From NCBI GenBank assembly GCA_902781655.1, contig CACZJZ010000009.1, positions 1 to 64,000 on the forward strand: 64,000 bases of DNA, written 5' to 3'. The position numbers and the translations under genes are program-made. Below are positions 3,676-13,855 of the stretch, one piece after another; position 1 is the first letter of the stretch, and each line of letters starts with the position of its first letter. This DNA is from an uncultured Lachnospiraceae bacterium. Lineage in GTDB: Bacteria > Bacillota > Clostridia > Lachnospirales > Lachnospiraceae. The notes under the pieces were generated by a model. It did not search any database. It was not told the origin of the DNA and saw only the letters and a list, made by a program, of their open reading frames with translations.

Positions 3676-4693
3676 CTATTCGCTCATCCCAAGCAGAGCA
3701 CGAAAGTCCTCCGGCAAGGGAGCCTTTATTACTAATTTTTCTCCCGTCATAGGCTGCAGCAGGGTCACTTCTTCTGCGTGCAGCATGCAGCGCTGCCCTG
3801 TTCGGGCCCGCCCATCCACGCTTACATCCTGAGTAGCTGCATCCTGTGTACTTTCCGGTCCGTACAGGCCATCGAATAAAAGGGGATGTCCGATCGAGGC
3901 CATATGGGTACGGATCTGATGCATTCGGCCGGTCCGGATGGATAAGCGGACAAAAGAGGCCGGACTGCCGTCAGGCAGGCTGAAATTTTTCAAGACCTGG
4001 TATTCCGTATGAGCCTCCAGCACAGGTGACTCTGCCAGATACCCATCCGCGGCCCCCGCTGTTGACCTTTTGGGGCTGACCACGATTCCTTTTTGCAAGG
4101 CCTGCTGCGCCCTTGGATCGGTGACCGGCAGCATCAGGCTCATGGGATGGCCGCTCTTGCCTACAAGGTCCGGGCACTTGACCCTGACCAAAGGGGTATC
4201 GATCCGGCTGTCGCCGGACAGGTGTCCGTGCACCAGAGCGACATACTGCTTGCTGTAAGTACCTTTTTTCCGTTCTTTTTCCATCCGGTTCAGGGCTACC
4301 GACGACCGGCAGGCTCCGATGACTCCGGACGTTTCCATATCCAGACGCCCGATCAGGCGGACCGGTTCGCGGTACCATGCCGGCCGGTTTATCCAGAAAA
4401 ACGATATCCCTGTCTTCATATAAGACAGGGATATTCAGTCCGGACCGGTCTTCCCGGACGGTCGCTCCGGTGTCGGGAAAACATATACGGATGACCTGGC
4501 CTTCTTTGACTGTCGTACCCGTCGAAGTACGCCCGTCCTCTGCAAATGTCTTTCCGTCAAGGCTGATGCCGCCGGGTGTGAACTTGGCCCGGCTGATCTG
4601 ACGGGACGATAAGCCCATCTTCTGTTTCAGTACCTGGCCCAGCCTCATACCTTCTTCATTCCGACTGACAAGGTGGGTAAGAATCAATTCCAT
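3676..4693 (-). pseudogene. RluA-family pseudouridine synthase, disrupted
   Basis: From the ATG at 4693 the first frame gives an S4-like RNA-binding start and then YEDRDIVFLDKPAGM, the conserved block before the catalytic region. The rest of the enzyme (RLIGRLDMETSGVI with the catalytic Asp in RLD, TYSKQYVALVHG, RLSIRTGRMHQIRTHMAS, HPLLFDGLYG) continues in another frame that overlaps it and ends at 3676. The conserved HP..GHxxGTL region between KPAGM and RLD is absent. A deletion of about 30-40 codons whose length is not a multiple of three therefore explains both the missing motif and the frameshift. The downstream end is marked by the terminator at 3637. Confidence 0.75.
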
Positions 4694-4729: not shown

Positions 4730-5143
4730 TCATTTACCGCTCTGATGACGTTTAACTTTCAGACGGTTGGCCGTGCGGGCGAACTCCAGCTCGGCCAGAT
4801 GATATTCCTGGATGCTCTTCTTCTGCAGCATGATCTCCTTGGCCCGCGCCTGCTCGGCTCTTGCCCGGTTGGCATCGATCTCTTCTGGCCGTTCGATGGT
4901 CTCGCACAGGATGAGCACTTCCCCGTCCTCGCATTTGACGAAGCCGTGGGAAACCGCCGCGTACTGGTTCTGCCCTCCGGGGACCCTCCAGGTCAGCTGG
5001 CCCGGTACGATGGCGCAGATCATGTTACTGTGCCCCGCCTGGATGCCCAGAAAACCGTCACGATAGGGAATGATCAAACTTTCCAAAGGTCCCTGGTAAA
5101 AGGGACCTTCTGCTTTTAATATGCGTCCGTTGAAGGCTTTCAC
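4730..5143 (-). CDS. atpC: F-type ATP synthase epsilon subunit
   Basis: A 137-residue protein with the beta-sandwich N-terminal domain of epsilon (PFYQGPLESLIIPYRDGFLGIQAGHSNM) and a two-helix C-terminal part rich in Ala, Arg and Glu (about residues 90-135). Epsilon sits on gamma in the central stalk and its C-terminal helices can inhibit ATP hydrolysis. It is the last gene of the atp operon, 60 bp after atpD. Length is normal for the family. Confidence 0.93.
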   Translation of the reverse strand: MKAFNGRILKAEGPFYQGPLESLIIPYRDGFLGIQAGHSNMICAIVPGQLTWRVPGGQNQYAAVSHGFVKCEDGEVLILCETIERPEEIDANRARAEQARAKEIMLQKKSIQEYHLAELEFARTANRLKVKRHQSGK

Positions 5144-5203: not shown

Positions 5204-7698
<2,495 letters not shown>

Positions 7699-7701
7699 GG
7701 A

Positions 7702-9453
7702 TTACTTCTTTCTGTAGGCAGCCAGCACCGGTTCGGCAAGATCGGCGATCTCCTGACGGGTCTCGTCGGAAAGTTTGCCCGAAGTATCGATGGTCCGGCA
7801 CAGGTCAGCCTTTTCACTGTTAAAGTAAGAAAGCAGGGCTGCGGAGGCCTGACTGATCTTTTTGACGTCGATCCCCAGGAACTGGTGGTCTAAGGCGCAG
7901 GTCAGCAGGATGACCTGTTCATGCTGCTGATAAGGATGATGCTGGTTCTGACGCAGAAGACGCATCAGACCCTGCCCGTAGGCCAACTGCTGTTTGGTGG
8001 TTTCATCCAGATCGCTGGAAAACTGAGTGAAAACTTCCATTTCCCGGTACTGGGACAGATCCAGCTTGATAGACCCGGCCGCCTTTTTCATGGCTTTGGT
8101 CTGAGCAGCGCCGCCGACACGGGATACAGACAGGCCGACGTTGACCGCCGGGCGCTGGCCCTCGAAGAATAGGTCGCTTTCCAGAAAGATCTGGCCGTCC
8201 GTGATGGAAATAATGTTGGTGGGAATGTAAGCCGATACGTCTCCTGCCTGGGTCTCTACGATAGGCAGAGCGGTCATGCTGCCGCCGCCCTTTTCGTCCG
8301 ACAGGTGGGCAGCCCTTTCCAGAAGGCGGGAATGCAGATAAAAGACATCGCCGGGATAGGCCTCACGTCCGGGAGACCGTTCCAGAAGCAGACTCATGGC
8401 ACGGTAAGCAACGGCGTGTTTGGACAGGTCATCATAGACGATCAGCACGTCCTTGCCCTTGTTCATGAAGTACTCGCCCATAGCGCAGCCGGCATAGGGA
8501 GCGATGTATTGAAGGGGCACCGCGTCCGAGGCCGAAGCGTCGATGACGATCGTGTAGTCCATGGCTCCCGTGTTTTTCAGAGTCTGGGTCAGCTGCATGA
8601 CGGAACTGTTTTTCTGGCCAATTGCTACATAGATACAGATAACGTCTTTACCCTTCTGGTTAAGGATGGTATCCAGGGCGATGGTAGTCTTACCGGTCTG
8701 GCGGTCGCCGATGATCAGCTCACGCTGTCCGCGTCCGATGGGGAACATGGAATCGATGCTTAAGATACCGGTCTCCATAGGACGGTTGACCGGCTGACGG
8801 TCGATGATGCCGGGGGCCGGTGACTCGACCGGACGGTAATCATTGGCCTGAATGGGACCTTTTCCGTCGATAGGCGAACCTAAAGCGTCGATGACCCTGC
8901 CCAGGAATTTTTCCCCGACCGGGATGCCGGCTTCCCGCATGGTGCGGTAAACCTTACTTCCTTCCATGACATCCTGATCGTCTCCGAACAAAATGCAGCC
9001 GATCCGGTCCTTTTTCAGGTCCTGGACCATGCCCTTGATGCCGCATTCAAAAACGACGATCTCACCGTAGGTGGCGTTGGTCAAGCCGCTGACCAGGGCG
9101 ATGCCGTCTCCTACTGTCAGAACGGTCCCCACTTCCTGGGGAACGATGGCAGGACTCCATTTGTCGATACTTTCCCGGATCAGAGGCATCAAACGGTCGG
9201 ACGGTACATCGGGCAGACCTTCGATCATGTCCCGCATCTGACGCAGACGTCCCGGCAGGCTCCAGTCGTACACATCGTGGCCGACCTCCAGGATAAATCC
9301 CGTTTTCAGGCTGGGATCTTCGACAAAGGTCAGATCGACGGGTCCGTATTTTTGGGTAAGAAAGCCTTCGAACTTCTCAAGCTGCTGCTGAGAAGGGGCC
9401 TGCGGAGCCCGGATCACAGCTTTCTTCTGTTTGGTGTCAGAGGAGGCGCTCAT
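7702..9453 (-). CDS. atpA: F-type ATP synthase alpha subunit fused to the delta-subunit C-terminal domain
   Basis: Residues from about 95 onward form a normal alpha subunit: the beta-barrel domain, the P-loop GDRQTGKT near residue 245, and the conserved block with [16 protein letters not shown] near residue 452. The protein is 583 residues against about 505. The extra N-terminus (about 15-85) reads like the C-terminal domain of delta/[16 protein letters not shown]..., [18 protein letters not shown] and [13 protein letters not shown] align with the end of E. coli AtpH (LSEQQL..., DKSVMAGVIIRAGDMVID, SVRGRLERLADVL). No separate atpH lies between atpF and atpA, where it normally would. The start codon overlaps the atpF stop (ATGA), so the fusion is not a mis-called start. 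See findings. Confidence 0.93.
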
Positions 9454-9968
9454 GCCGGGTCCCCTCCCTTGACGGCGCTGCTATCGGATCCATCGGCGGC
9501 GGTGTCGGCAGTATTTAAAAATTCATCATATACGTCCGATACTGACTTTCTGGCCAGTTTGGAGGCAGCATCTTCCGCCAGCGAGCGGATCTGTTTGGAA
9601 GCATCTTCCATAATGCTGGCTTTATCAGCCTCCGCCTCCCGGCGGGCTTTAGCCAGGATCTGTTCGGCCTTCTGATGGGCGTCTGCTTCTTCCTGACTCA
9701 GCTTATCCTGCATTTCCTGCTGAGCCGTCTTTTTGCGCAGAGCGATCTCCTGATCGGCCTGATCAAGCTTAGCCTGATATTGAGCCTTTAATTCGTCGGC
9801 CTGACTGTTTTTCTGGGCAGCTTCGTCGGCCATAGCTTTATACTTGGCCTCCCGCTTGTCCATAAAATCCTTGACCGGCTTATAGAGCAGGAGATACAGG
9901 CCGCCGAATAAAATTGCAAAGTTGAACAGATGCAGCAGGATCTGCTGCAGATTGATATTCAGTGGCAT
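9450..9968 (-). CDS. atpF: F-type ATP synthase b subunit
   Basis: A 172-residue peripheral-stalk protein with one N-terminal membrane helix ([22 protein letters not shown]) followed by a long charged coiled coil (about residues 35-145). The C-terminal 30 residues are polar and disordered-looking ([18 protein letters not shown]), where b normally contacts delta. Its stop overlaps the atpA start by 4 bp. Given that delta is only present as a domain on AtpA, this tail is the likely contact partner, which is inference. Confidence 0.93.
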
Positions 9969-9987: not shown

Positions 9988-10383
9988 TTACAGGGTGAAG
10001 ACGATCAGGATCGCAACGATCAGGGCGTAAATGATGGCCGTTTCGATAAATACCAGACCCAGCATCAAAGCGGTACGGATGCTGCCGGCTGCTTCGGGCT
10101 GACGGGAAATGGACTCTACCGACTTGGAAATGGAAAGGCCCATGGAAAAGGCGCCGACGCCGGCTACAAAGGCGATGGCGACTGCGGCTGCCCAAGCCTT
10201 GCTGCTGACAGTAGACGCCTCAGCGGCGGCCTCACTGACAGCGGTGTCCGCGCTTGCATCCGTATCTTCTACAGCAGCGGTCTGCGGAACGGCTGCCTGC
10301 GTTTTTACAGCCGGAAGCAGGGTCGAAAGTCCGATGACCAGAGCCAGTGCTGCAAAAATAAAACGTTTCGTAATGGTTTTCAT
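9988..10383 (-). CDS. atpE: F-type ATP synthase c subunit with signal-peptide-like N-terminal extension
   Basis: The last 70 residues are a normal c-ring hairpin: helix 1 (AWAAAVAIAFVAGVGAFSMGLS), polar loop with ESISRQPEA, helix 2 with the ion-binding Glu in GLVFIETAIIYALI. In front of it stand about 57 extra residues: a hydrophobic segment (FIFAALALVIGLSTLLPAVKTQA) that looks like a cleavable signal peptide, then an acidic, Ala-rich linker. When helix 1 and 2 are lined up with the Na+-binding c subunit of Ilyobacter, the Gln and Thr ligands appear to be Met and Ala here, which favours proton coupling; this is inferred from alignment by eye. Confidence 0.92.
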   Translation of the reverse strand: MKTITKRFIFAALALVIGLSTLLPAVKTQAAVPQTAAVEDTDASADTAVSEAAAEASTVSSKAWAAAVAIAFVAGVGAFSMGLSISKSVESISRQPEAAGSIRTALMLGLVFIETAIIYALIVAILIVFTL

Positions 10384-10435: not shown

Positions 10436-11287
10436 TCAGGCTGCTATGTCTGCAGCTTTGGGTTTTGCCTTGCTTTTTTTAGCCTTTTTCGGCTGGGGAA
10501 GCGAAACTTCTCCGTAGAATACGGTGGTCAGCATGGTCAGTACGTAGGTCTGGATCAGGGCGTGCATCAAGGTGAACATAATACCTACTGCTACCGGGAT
10601 CACAAAGCTGAGGCTGATGCTGTAATAAACCAGCTCGGTCACCAGAAGTCCGCTCAGAAGAGCTCCGAACAGTCGGAAACTCATGGAGATGGGAAGCGAA
10701 AATTCCTTCAGCGTCAGGCCTATGCCTTTGACATGGTTGCCGGCGATACCACCCGACATTATGACACCGTAGGAAAGGCAGCCCAGGGCTATGGCCGCGT
10801 TGATATCCGACAGAGGGGACGGCAGGGACACGCTCGCCCCGGTGGTCGTTATGGCCTGTATGCCGAACAGCTCAAACAGAGTGCCGAAGAAAATATAGCT
10901 TCCGGCGAAGAACACGTAAGCGCCTAAGAACTTATGACGGTGCGGGCTGTTCTGTCTTGCCAGCCCGTCGGCCAGATCCACCAGGCTTTCGATGGCCAGC
11001 TGGAACTTGCCGGGCACTTCGGTAAAATGGGGAACAGCGAAAATGCGGATCAGCGCGGCCGCCGCCAGAAGGATCCCCATGATCCACCAGTCGGCGATCA
11101 CCGAGGGATTCATCAGCATGCCCAGCGCTTTGATTTTGTTATGGTCATGAAGTACCCCATCCTTCATGACATCCTGCAGCGTTTCCGTGTTGGCGGCCGG
11201 TTTCCCCATCAAAAAAATAAGGACCAGCAGAACAACAAGGACCGCTGCCCAGACAATCAGAAATTTTTTCTTTTTCTTTTTGTCCAC
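10436..11287 (-). CDS. atpB: F-type ATP synthase a subunit
   Basis: A membrane subunit of about 283 residues that forms the ion half-channels. The essential Arg lies in the conserved SFRLFGALLSGLLV segment, followed by the last two helices (TLMHALIQTYVLTMLTTVF). The gene could start at an ATG at 11317, but no ribosome-binding site precedes that codon, whereas AAAGGAG (11300-11306) stands 11 bases before a GTG at 11287, so GTG is preferred. It is the first gene of the operon; no atpI is present upstream. The C-terminus ends in a Lys-rich cytoplasmic tail. Confidence 0.9.
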   Translation of the reverse strand: MDKKKKKKFLIVWAAVLVVLLVLIFLMGKPAANTETLQDVMKDGVLHDHNKIKALGMLMNPSVIADWWIMGILLAAAALIRIFAVPHFTEVPGKFQLAIESLVDLADGLARQNSPHRHKFLGAYVFFAGSYIFFGTLFELFGIQAITTTGASVSLPSPLSDINAAIALGCLSYGVIMSGGIAGNHVKGIGLTLKEFSLPISMSFRLFGALLSGLLVTELVYYSISLSFVIPVAVGIMFTLMHALIQTYVLTMLTTVFYGEVSLPQPKKAKKSKAKPKAADIAA

Positions 11288-11355
11288 AGTCTGTATCACT
11301 CCTTTCAGAGTAAACATTGTTTGCCAATGACACTTCTAAAAATTAGGCAAGTGTT

Positions 11356-12861: not shown

Positions 12862-13220
12862 TTATTCACTATAAAAAAGCATTTGAAAAATAGTATCAGT
12901 CGCTTGAGATACATCCATGTTGCTTGTATTAATCTCGACTTTAGGGGACAAAGGTATCTCATATGGGCTATCCAGTCCAGTAAAATTCGTAATTTTCCCT
13001 TCTCGAGCTTCCTTATATAGTCCTTTGCAATCGCGTTTTTCGCAGATTTCCAAAGGTGTTGAAAGGTATATCTCATAGAAGTGGTCTGCACCAATAATCT
13101 CTTTTGCCACTTCCCTATCAACTTGTAAAGGTGAAATCAGTGCTGCAGCGGCATTCACATTATTATTATTTAGTAACTTGCAAATTTCTGCTACTCTTCG
13201 AATATTTTCTTTTCCTAACC
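12862..13220 (-). pseudogene. cysC: C-terminal fragment of adenylylsulfate kinase
   Basis: The frame ending at 12862 reads ENIRRVAEICKLL, AAALISPLQVDREVAKEI, FYEIYLSTPLEICEKRDCKGLY, GKITNFTGLDSPYEIPLSPKVEI, which is the C-terminal two thirds of CysC (APS kinase, making PAPS). The N-terminal P-loop (GLSGSGKST) is absent, because the sequence upstream switches to an IS30 transposase at about 13,220. The fragment cannot bind ATP and is a remnant. It converges with the MATE gene with only 6 bp between them. Confidence 0.8.
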
Positions 13221-13855
13221 ACGGATTCTCTGCCGGCTTTATGGCCAACGACGGTATCGATCTCCCAGTGCCCGCACTCGGTCCTGAGTGCTGCAACGTT
13301 CGGTCGTTCGTCTATGCTTGTTCCGAGAATTCGCTTATTCTTCCTTGCAGGATGCTTCTTGTGTGCCTTGCTCAAGGCCTCTGGAACATCAAACGGGGTG
13401 AGCGGCAGATTCCCTGCCCACAGCTCATTGTAGAGTGTTTTGGTGCAGGGGATCTGGTCTTTCGAAAACAGTACCTTGCGTATGGCATATCCTACACACG
13501 CATCCAATGACCAATGTTGCTCTTTCATCTTATCGATCATCCACTTGATGAATGGATTGGTCTTCGTGAGTTTGTGTTCCTTATGACATCTGCTGCGGTT
13601 GACTTCATAATTTGCCTGACCTCGCTTAGGCGAATATTCCGGAAAGCGACCACGTTTGCCATTTCGTTCTCCGGTCCCTCTGCGCAGTTCATACATGACC
13701 GTTGAGAGCGAGCAGTCTAACGATAGTGCGATGGCTCTAAGAGAATAGCCCAGCTTATGGAAGACTTTGATGCTGCACCTGTCTTCAAATCTAAGATGCT
13801 GACCTCTTTCGCGATCAGGGGTTAATGTGGTAGAATTTGCTTGATCCATAACCAT
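13220..13855 (-). pseudogene. IS30-family transposase, C-terminally truncated
   Basis: The start (LRFEDRCSIKVFHKLGYSLRAIALSLDCSLSTVMYELRRGT) is the IS30 helix-turn-helix, and residues near 195 (RTECGHWEIDTVVGHKAG) contain the first catalytic Asp of the DDE triad. The reading frame then runs into unrelated DNA, so the second and third acidic residues are lost. The cut coincides with the start of the cysC fragment, so a single deletion removed the end of the transposase together with the beginning of cysC. Confidence 0.85.

Follow-up and report, generated by a model that had tools for sequence, protein, structure and literature searches.

A natural fusion of the delta C-terminal domain to the alpha subunit in ATP synthases of Lachnospiraceae, and what it may mean for the number of stalks

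How is F1 held to its stalk in an ATP synthase whose operon encodes no delta subunit? The question is raised by an F-type ATPase operon in a 64,000-nucleotide stretch of DNA from an uncultured Lachnospiraceae bacterium (contig CACZJZ010000009.1, positions 1 to 64,000; hereafter the window). The genes of this operon, all on the minus strand, run atpB, atpE, atpF, atpA, atpG, atpD, atpC, that is, a-c-b-[deltaC]alpha-gamma-beta-epsilon. Delta lies between b and alpha in canonical operons; in this operon we found no atpH, either there or elsewhere, and atpF (9450-9968) overlaps atpA by 4 bp (ATGA). A preliminary description of the stretch had noted this arrangement, which open reading frame (ORF) positions and Pfam matches confirm, and had proposed that some 90 extra N-terminal residues of AtpA are the C-terminal domain of delta.

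The protein itself bears this proposal out. The atpA gene (7702..9453, minus strand; ATG start) encodes 583 amino acids, of which residues 6-75 (9229..9438) match positions 99-170 of the 172-position PF00213 (OSCP) profile with 34.6 bits and an E value of 2.6e-8, above the Pfam cut-off of 22.3 bits, whereas residues 106-574 match ATP-synt_ab_N, ab and ab_C, the beta-barrel, nucleotide-binding and C-terminal domains of alpha. Because ordinary alpha chains among the listed PDB matches align to AtpA only from residue 83 or later, the extra part measures about 80 to 90 residues. AlphaFold2 modeled the N-terminal domain with a predicted local distance difference test score (pLDDT) of 76.5 and placed a helix at residues 85-98, and by Foldseek and VIA-align the predicted fold resembles delta/OSCP structures and the engineered delta-alpha fusion 9jc1. 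The linker and alpha N-terminal helix (residues 76-105, 9139..9228) align with the alpha N-terminal helix of that fusion (profile 12-109 on chain 5-101), AtpA residues 11-540 align with residues 5-538 of PDB 9jc1_I, across the junction, and among the best 60 of 69 PDB matches 9jc1 is the only chain that also covers the delta domain. The delta N-domain was not found in AtpA, where the PF00213 match is confined to profile positions 99-170; of the two domains that define delta/OSCP, an N-domain that binds alpha and a C-domain that binds b, only the latter is present.

A missing subunit could be encoded elsewhere, and the preliminary description had called for a search of the full genome. Across this genome (2.76 Mb, 99.5% complete), PF00213 gives two matches at E<=0.001, both within alpha-encoding open frames (592 and 613 amino acids), and at that threshold neither a free delta nor the alpha-binding domain was detected. 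One match is the window gene on contig C9, and the other, at C6:181614, belongs to a second complete F-ATPase operon, whose AtpA of 591 amino acids bears the same delta C-domain (match limited to profile 103-168). Over 121 residues, the C6 copy is 98% identical to a copy in the uncultured Lachnospiraceae isolate RUG554 (locus L155); we take RUG genomes to derive from the rumen. The genome also holds two PF00430 (b) matches, one of them the window AtpF, and encodes an A/V-type ATPase.

The preliminary description knew of no delta-alpha fusion, and in this respect it was mistaken: as a kind, the fusion is already published. Ueno et al. 2025 (PMC12229609) deleted residues 2-104 of Bacillus PS3 delta and joined the remainder to alpha. 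In the resulting deltaΔN-alpha enzyme, gels indicated two stalks on average and cryo-EM as many as three, with an a-subunit for each stalk, and the H+/ATP ratio was 5.8. Of the particles on the grid, 15, 51, 26 and 8% had 0, 1, 2 and 3 stalks, respectively. Those authors argue that the delta N-domain, lying on the threefold axis, restricts stalks to one, and in their Discussion they point to natural deltaΔN-alpha fusions in Acidaminococcus fermentans, for which they predict a multi-stalk enzyme, and in two UniProt entries; the sections consulted mention no wider spread. By their description, the window gene shares with A. fermentans a natural gene fusion of this type. With the engineered PS3 enzyme (9jc1) it shares the absence of the delta N-domain, a C-domain attached through a short linker to the N-terminus of alpha and the lack of a free delta, but the PS3 enzyme is man-made, lacks the epsilon C-domain and has had its stalks counted, whereas the window encodes a natural enzyme whose epsilon subunit retains both domains. 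Judged by its sequence, with the C-domain on the alpha N-terminus and the N-domain absent, AtpA is a natural deltaΔN-alpha subunit in the sense of Ueno et al.

Other known fusions are more distant. In the mycobacterial b-delta subunit (PDB 7jg5), a delta domain is likewise fused to a stator partner, and its C-domain matches that of the window; there, however, delta sits on b, whereas in the window the C-domain alone sits on alpha. The mycobacterial enzyme presumably has one delta, with its N-domain kept. Gordonia and some Mycobacterium also have fusions of b and delta (PMC5709465), and in N-ATPases delta is missing or fused with b (PMC11738941). The window operon resembles N-ATPases in having no free delta, but its gene order differs from theirs, beta-epsilon-X-X-a-c-(b delta)-alpha-gamma (PMC11738941). 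A search of open-licence texts found no paper on a delta-alpha fusion in Lachnospiraceae or other Clostridia. What is new here is how widely the fusion occurs, that one genome can hold two operons with it, and that its forms make up a graded series, with probable repeated loss of the N-domain.

The fusion is not peculiar to the window genome, as the survey of relatives suggested in the preliminary description makes plain. Probing 200 family genomes, one per genus and our own included, with a profile of the fused domain (A1), we found delta-alpha fusions in at least 42, with annotated loci comprising 29 deltaC-alpha (C-domain only), 12 whole-delta-alpha and 1 b-deltaC-alpha; G178 is counted through the Oribacterium parvum ACB1 locus L173, and G007 and G180 were counted after annotation despite a reported stop within the matched stretch. 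In the class sample, 42 of 391 genomes (own included), from 17 family codes, carry a fusion (of the 41 loci other than our own, 40 were annotated and G529 was counted without annotation), and in a phylum sample of 299 genomes, searched at E<=1e-7, G892 alone has a fused frame from beyond the class. Within the genus itself, the less sensitive PF00213 search found a fused frame in 11 of 41 genomes, a free delta in 25 (4 of these with both) and no match in 9, so that many relatives, even within the genus, retain an ordinary delta. A canonical operon accompanies the fused one in G214, G236 and O. parvum. A scan of named genomes, whose counts give no prevalence because the probe was the fused domain, kept 80 of 158 loci (54 deltaC-alpha, 17 whole-delta-alpha and 9 canonical). 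Cultured bearers of the whole fusion include O. parvum ACB1, several other Oribacterium and Parablautia sp. Marseille-Q6255, and cultured bearers of deltaC-alpha include Shuttleworthella satelles DSM 14600, [Clostridium] aminophilum DSM 10710 and KH1P1, Lachnospiraceae MA2020, AD3010 and P6A3, and Catenisphaera adipataccumulans DSM 25799.

This recurrence bears on whether the window gene might be an assembly artefact, a pseudogene or part of a dead operon. The evidence is genomic, and a few relatives are indeed damaged (alpha is shortened at the fused locus L115 of G319, and beta is split in L266), but every subunit in the window matches its Pfam family within a single open frame, and the fusion appears in many independent assemblies and in cultured strains such as S. 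satelles DSM 14600 and [C.] aminophilum DSM 10710. Since it also recurs in the second operon of the same genome, an assembly deletion as its source is very unlikely, and we give the artefact or dead-operon explanation as a whole scarcely any weight.

The forms found among relatives make up a graded series, and look like what deletions between b and alpha would leave. Among 192 distinct annotated alphas, gathered with fused probes so that the counts give no prevalence, 116 carry the delta C-domain and 35 the whole of delta. In 123 fused genes (some genomes present twice), the segment ahead of the C-domain is shorter than 20 residues in 91 of 102 deltaC-alpha genes and 90 to 109 residues long in all 20 whole fusions; the remaining deltaC-alpha genes comprise 10 of intermediate length and one in the 90s without a recognizable N-domain. 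Even in whole fusions, the first ~30 residues of the N-domain usually go unrecognized (median model start 30, compared to 5 in free deltas), as if this domain were decaying. Several unusual genes were also seen (L and G numbers denote loci and genomes). A single 778-amino-acid frame, found in one genome only (L075:6156-8492, G068), joins b, the delta C-domain and alpha, and read literally would give three b chains per F1; in L076:5605-6288 (G065), b bears a C-terminal delta C-domain, with no delta N-domain recognized, and a plain alpha comes next. In L146:3771-4556 (G490), a free delta 261 amino acids long has one N-domain and two tandem C-domains, hence two b docks, and its enzyme possibly arrives at two stalks by another route. 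A second b-like subunit of 319 amino acids with an unexplained C-terminal half (L077:4483-5442, G071) adjoins a deltaC-alpha gene.

What would such a subunit do? The preliminary description had reasoned that each F1 would bear three delta C-domains unless a single one were used, and three is indeed what the arrangement provides if there is one form of alpha and not two. In an ordinary enzyme, the delta N-domain sits on the threefold axis and permits one delta per F1; with that domain lost and the b-binding C-domain tethered to alpha, b would dock on the tethered domain without any free delta, and the clamp between F1 and the stalk would on this account be covalent. The alpha N-terminal helix that follows the delta domain is kept, with nothing known to occupy the axis. 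Three equal docks around an empty axis could then admit more than one b2 stalk, and with each stalk an a-subunit, in some or all of the complexes, and additional stalks and a-subunits would raise the number of ions moved per ATP. Up to three stalks with their a-subunits have been demonstrated by others for the engineered enzyme (PMC12229609), and by analogy the natural one may carry as many. From the domain and its predicted fold, the lack of another detectable delta, the recurrence of the fusion and a tree on which the N-domain seems to disappear repeatedly, we lean, with modest confidence, toward the window enzyme being a natural deltaΔN-alpha synthase with more than one stalk in at least some complexes.

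Four observations weigh against this reading. Although gels gave about two stalks for the engineered enzyme, most of its particles on the grid had one or none (PMC12229609). Fusion alone does not imply many stalks, because the whole-delta-alpha forms keep the N-domain, of which presumably only one in three could sit on the axis. Given that the genome encodes another fused F-ATPase as well as an A/V-type ATPase, the window operon need not encode the main enzyme or be expressed. Finally, codon 61 of the window atpA, which lies within the delta domain, is an in-frame GTG preceded by a good ribosome site (-10.5), so that some shortened alpha may be made. The first two of these points would suit an enzyme in which all three alphas carry the domain but one dock is used, the fusion saving a subunit and strengthening a covalent clamp on a single stalk; whole-delta-alpha fusions, with their site-limiting N-domain, are common in the fused-probe set and fit one stalk. 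Yet a single stalk offers no obvious advantage for losing the N-domain repeatedly after fusion, and the engineered enzyme without that domain averaged two stalks by gel (PMC12229609). We regard the single-stalk explanation as a serious but less probable alternative.

The GTG codon leads to another possibility, namely, that internal initiation or cleavage yields about one deltaC-alpha and two plain alphas per F1, and hence one stalk. If plain alpha were also made, a ribosome site would be expected near the alpha start. A start codon of any kind is present at the junction in 104 of the 123 fused genes; over the set, the best one there scores -5.19 kcal/mol, compared to a background of -4.77 derived from further codons in those genes and to -7.49 at the gene start, which amounts to little or no enrichment. 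In the window, the gene start of atpA scores -12.3, whereas ATG codons 73, 76 and 89 are weak (-4.9, -1.1 and +0.4). Three operons, from three family codes, provide a built-in control, in that gamma and beta share one reading frame (L076:7817-10117, L110:5797-8157 and L112:5815-8199); this frame cannot be the sole product if F1 has one gamma, and the same measure finds good sites at the beta start (-14.8, -8.7 and -8.7). These frames suggest that internal starts can persist in such operons, and the L075 b-deltaC-alpha gene has a fair site (-7.8) at an internal ATG, codon 276. There is nonetheless no general sign of a separately made plain alpha, and we consider a mixture of alphas improbable.

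The history of the fusion was approached with a quick tree of 97 alpha cores, from which the delta part was excluded. Placing all fused rows in one clade was rejected (approximately unbiased [AU] test, log-likelihood 300 lower); a single origin of the fusion within the main clade is compatible with the data (p 0.61). The C6 copy falls in a clade of 41 rows in which 32 deltaC-alpha and 9 whole fusions are interleaved, and within which a single N-domain-less clade was rejected (p 2.1e-4). Because of this rejection, and because regain seems less likely than loss, loss of the N-domain after fusion probably happened on more than one occasion, although recombination may also have produced the interleaving. 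The window copy lies in a separate clade of 22, all deltaC-alpha save the b-deltaC-alpha gene (Shimodaira-Hasegawa-like approximate likelihood ratio test [SH-aLRT] 95, and 99 for the 21), and the two copies, being in different clades, are not recent duplicates. A wider scenario, whose chances we judge evenly balanced, can be drawn: many gut and rumen Clostridia would possess multi-stalk ATP synthases by nature, each c-ring being served by two or three a-subunits and ions/ATP lying above c/3, delta having been fused whole first and its N-domain then repeatedly lost, and the window genome would hold two of them. If so, both the c-ring and the a-subunit count would determine the natural ion-to-ATP ratio, and fermenters would possess a low-gear machine that moves more ions per ATP and might make ATP at low driving force or, in reverse, export ions cheaply. 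With the fused subunit spread over 17 family codes in the class sample, present in cultured strains and twice in one genome, and accompanied by intermediates, the existence of natural multi-stalk enzymes is directly testable.

The remaining genes of the window operon, all on the minus strand, are otherwise those of an F-type ATPase. They encode the a subunit (atpB, 10436..11317; PF00119, E 5.9e-17), the c subunit (atpE, 9988..10383; PF00137 at residues 65-127), the b subunit of 172 amino acids (atpF, 9450..9968; PF00430, E 8.4e-16, its only match, so that b carries no delta), gamma (atpG, 6796..7698; PF00231, E 6.5e-87), beta (atpD, 5204..6793, counted from the first TTG; PF00006, E 1.5e-73) and epsilon with both domains (atpC, 4730..5143; PF02823 and PF00401). 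At its N-terminus the c subunit is extended by about 60 residues, which resemble a signal peptide plus linker, and long c ORFs (about 106-150 amino acids) are also found in several relatives of the window clade. Among eight c subunits compared, the motif reads E-T-A in the window, E-A-T in four other fused operons and the canonical L139, and E-T-T, which we take to be sodium-like, in two canonical operons (L147 and L243); these sequences give no firm indication of the ion. Nearby on the minus strand, two overlapping frames at 3676-4693 resemble what is presumably one RluA-type pseudouridine synthase split by a frameshift or sequencing error, and an ORF at 13166-13855 resembles what we assume to be the start of an IS30-type transposase.
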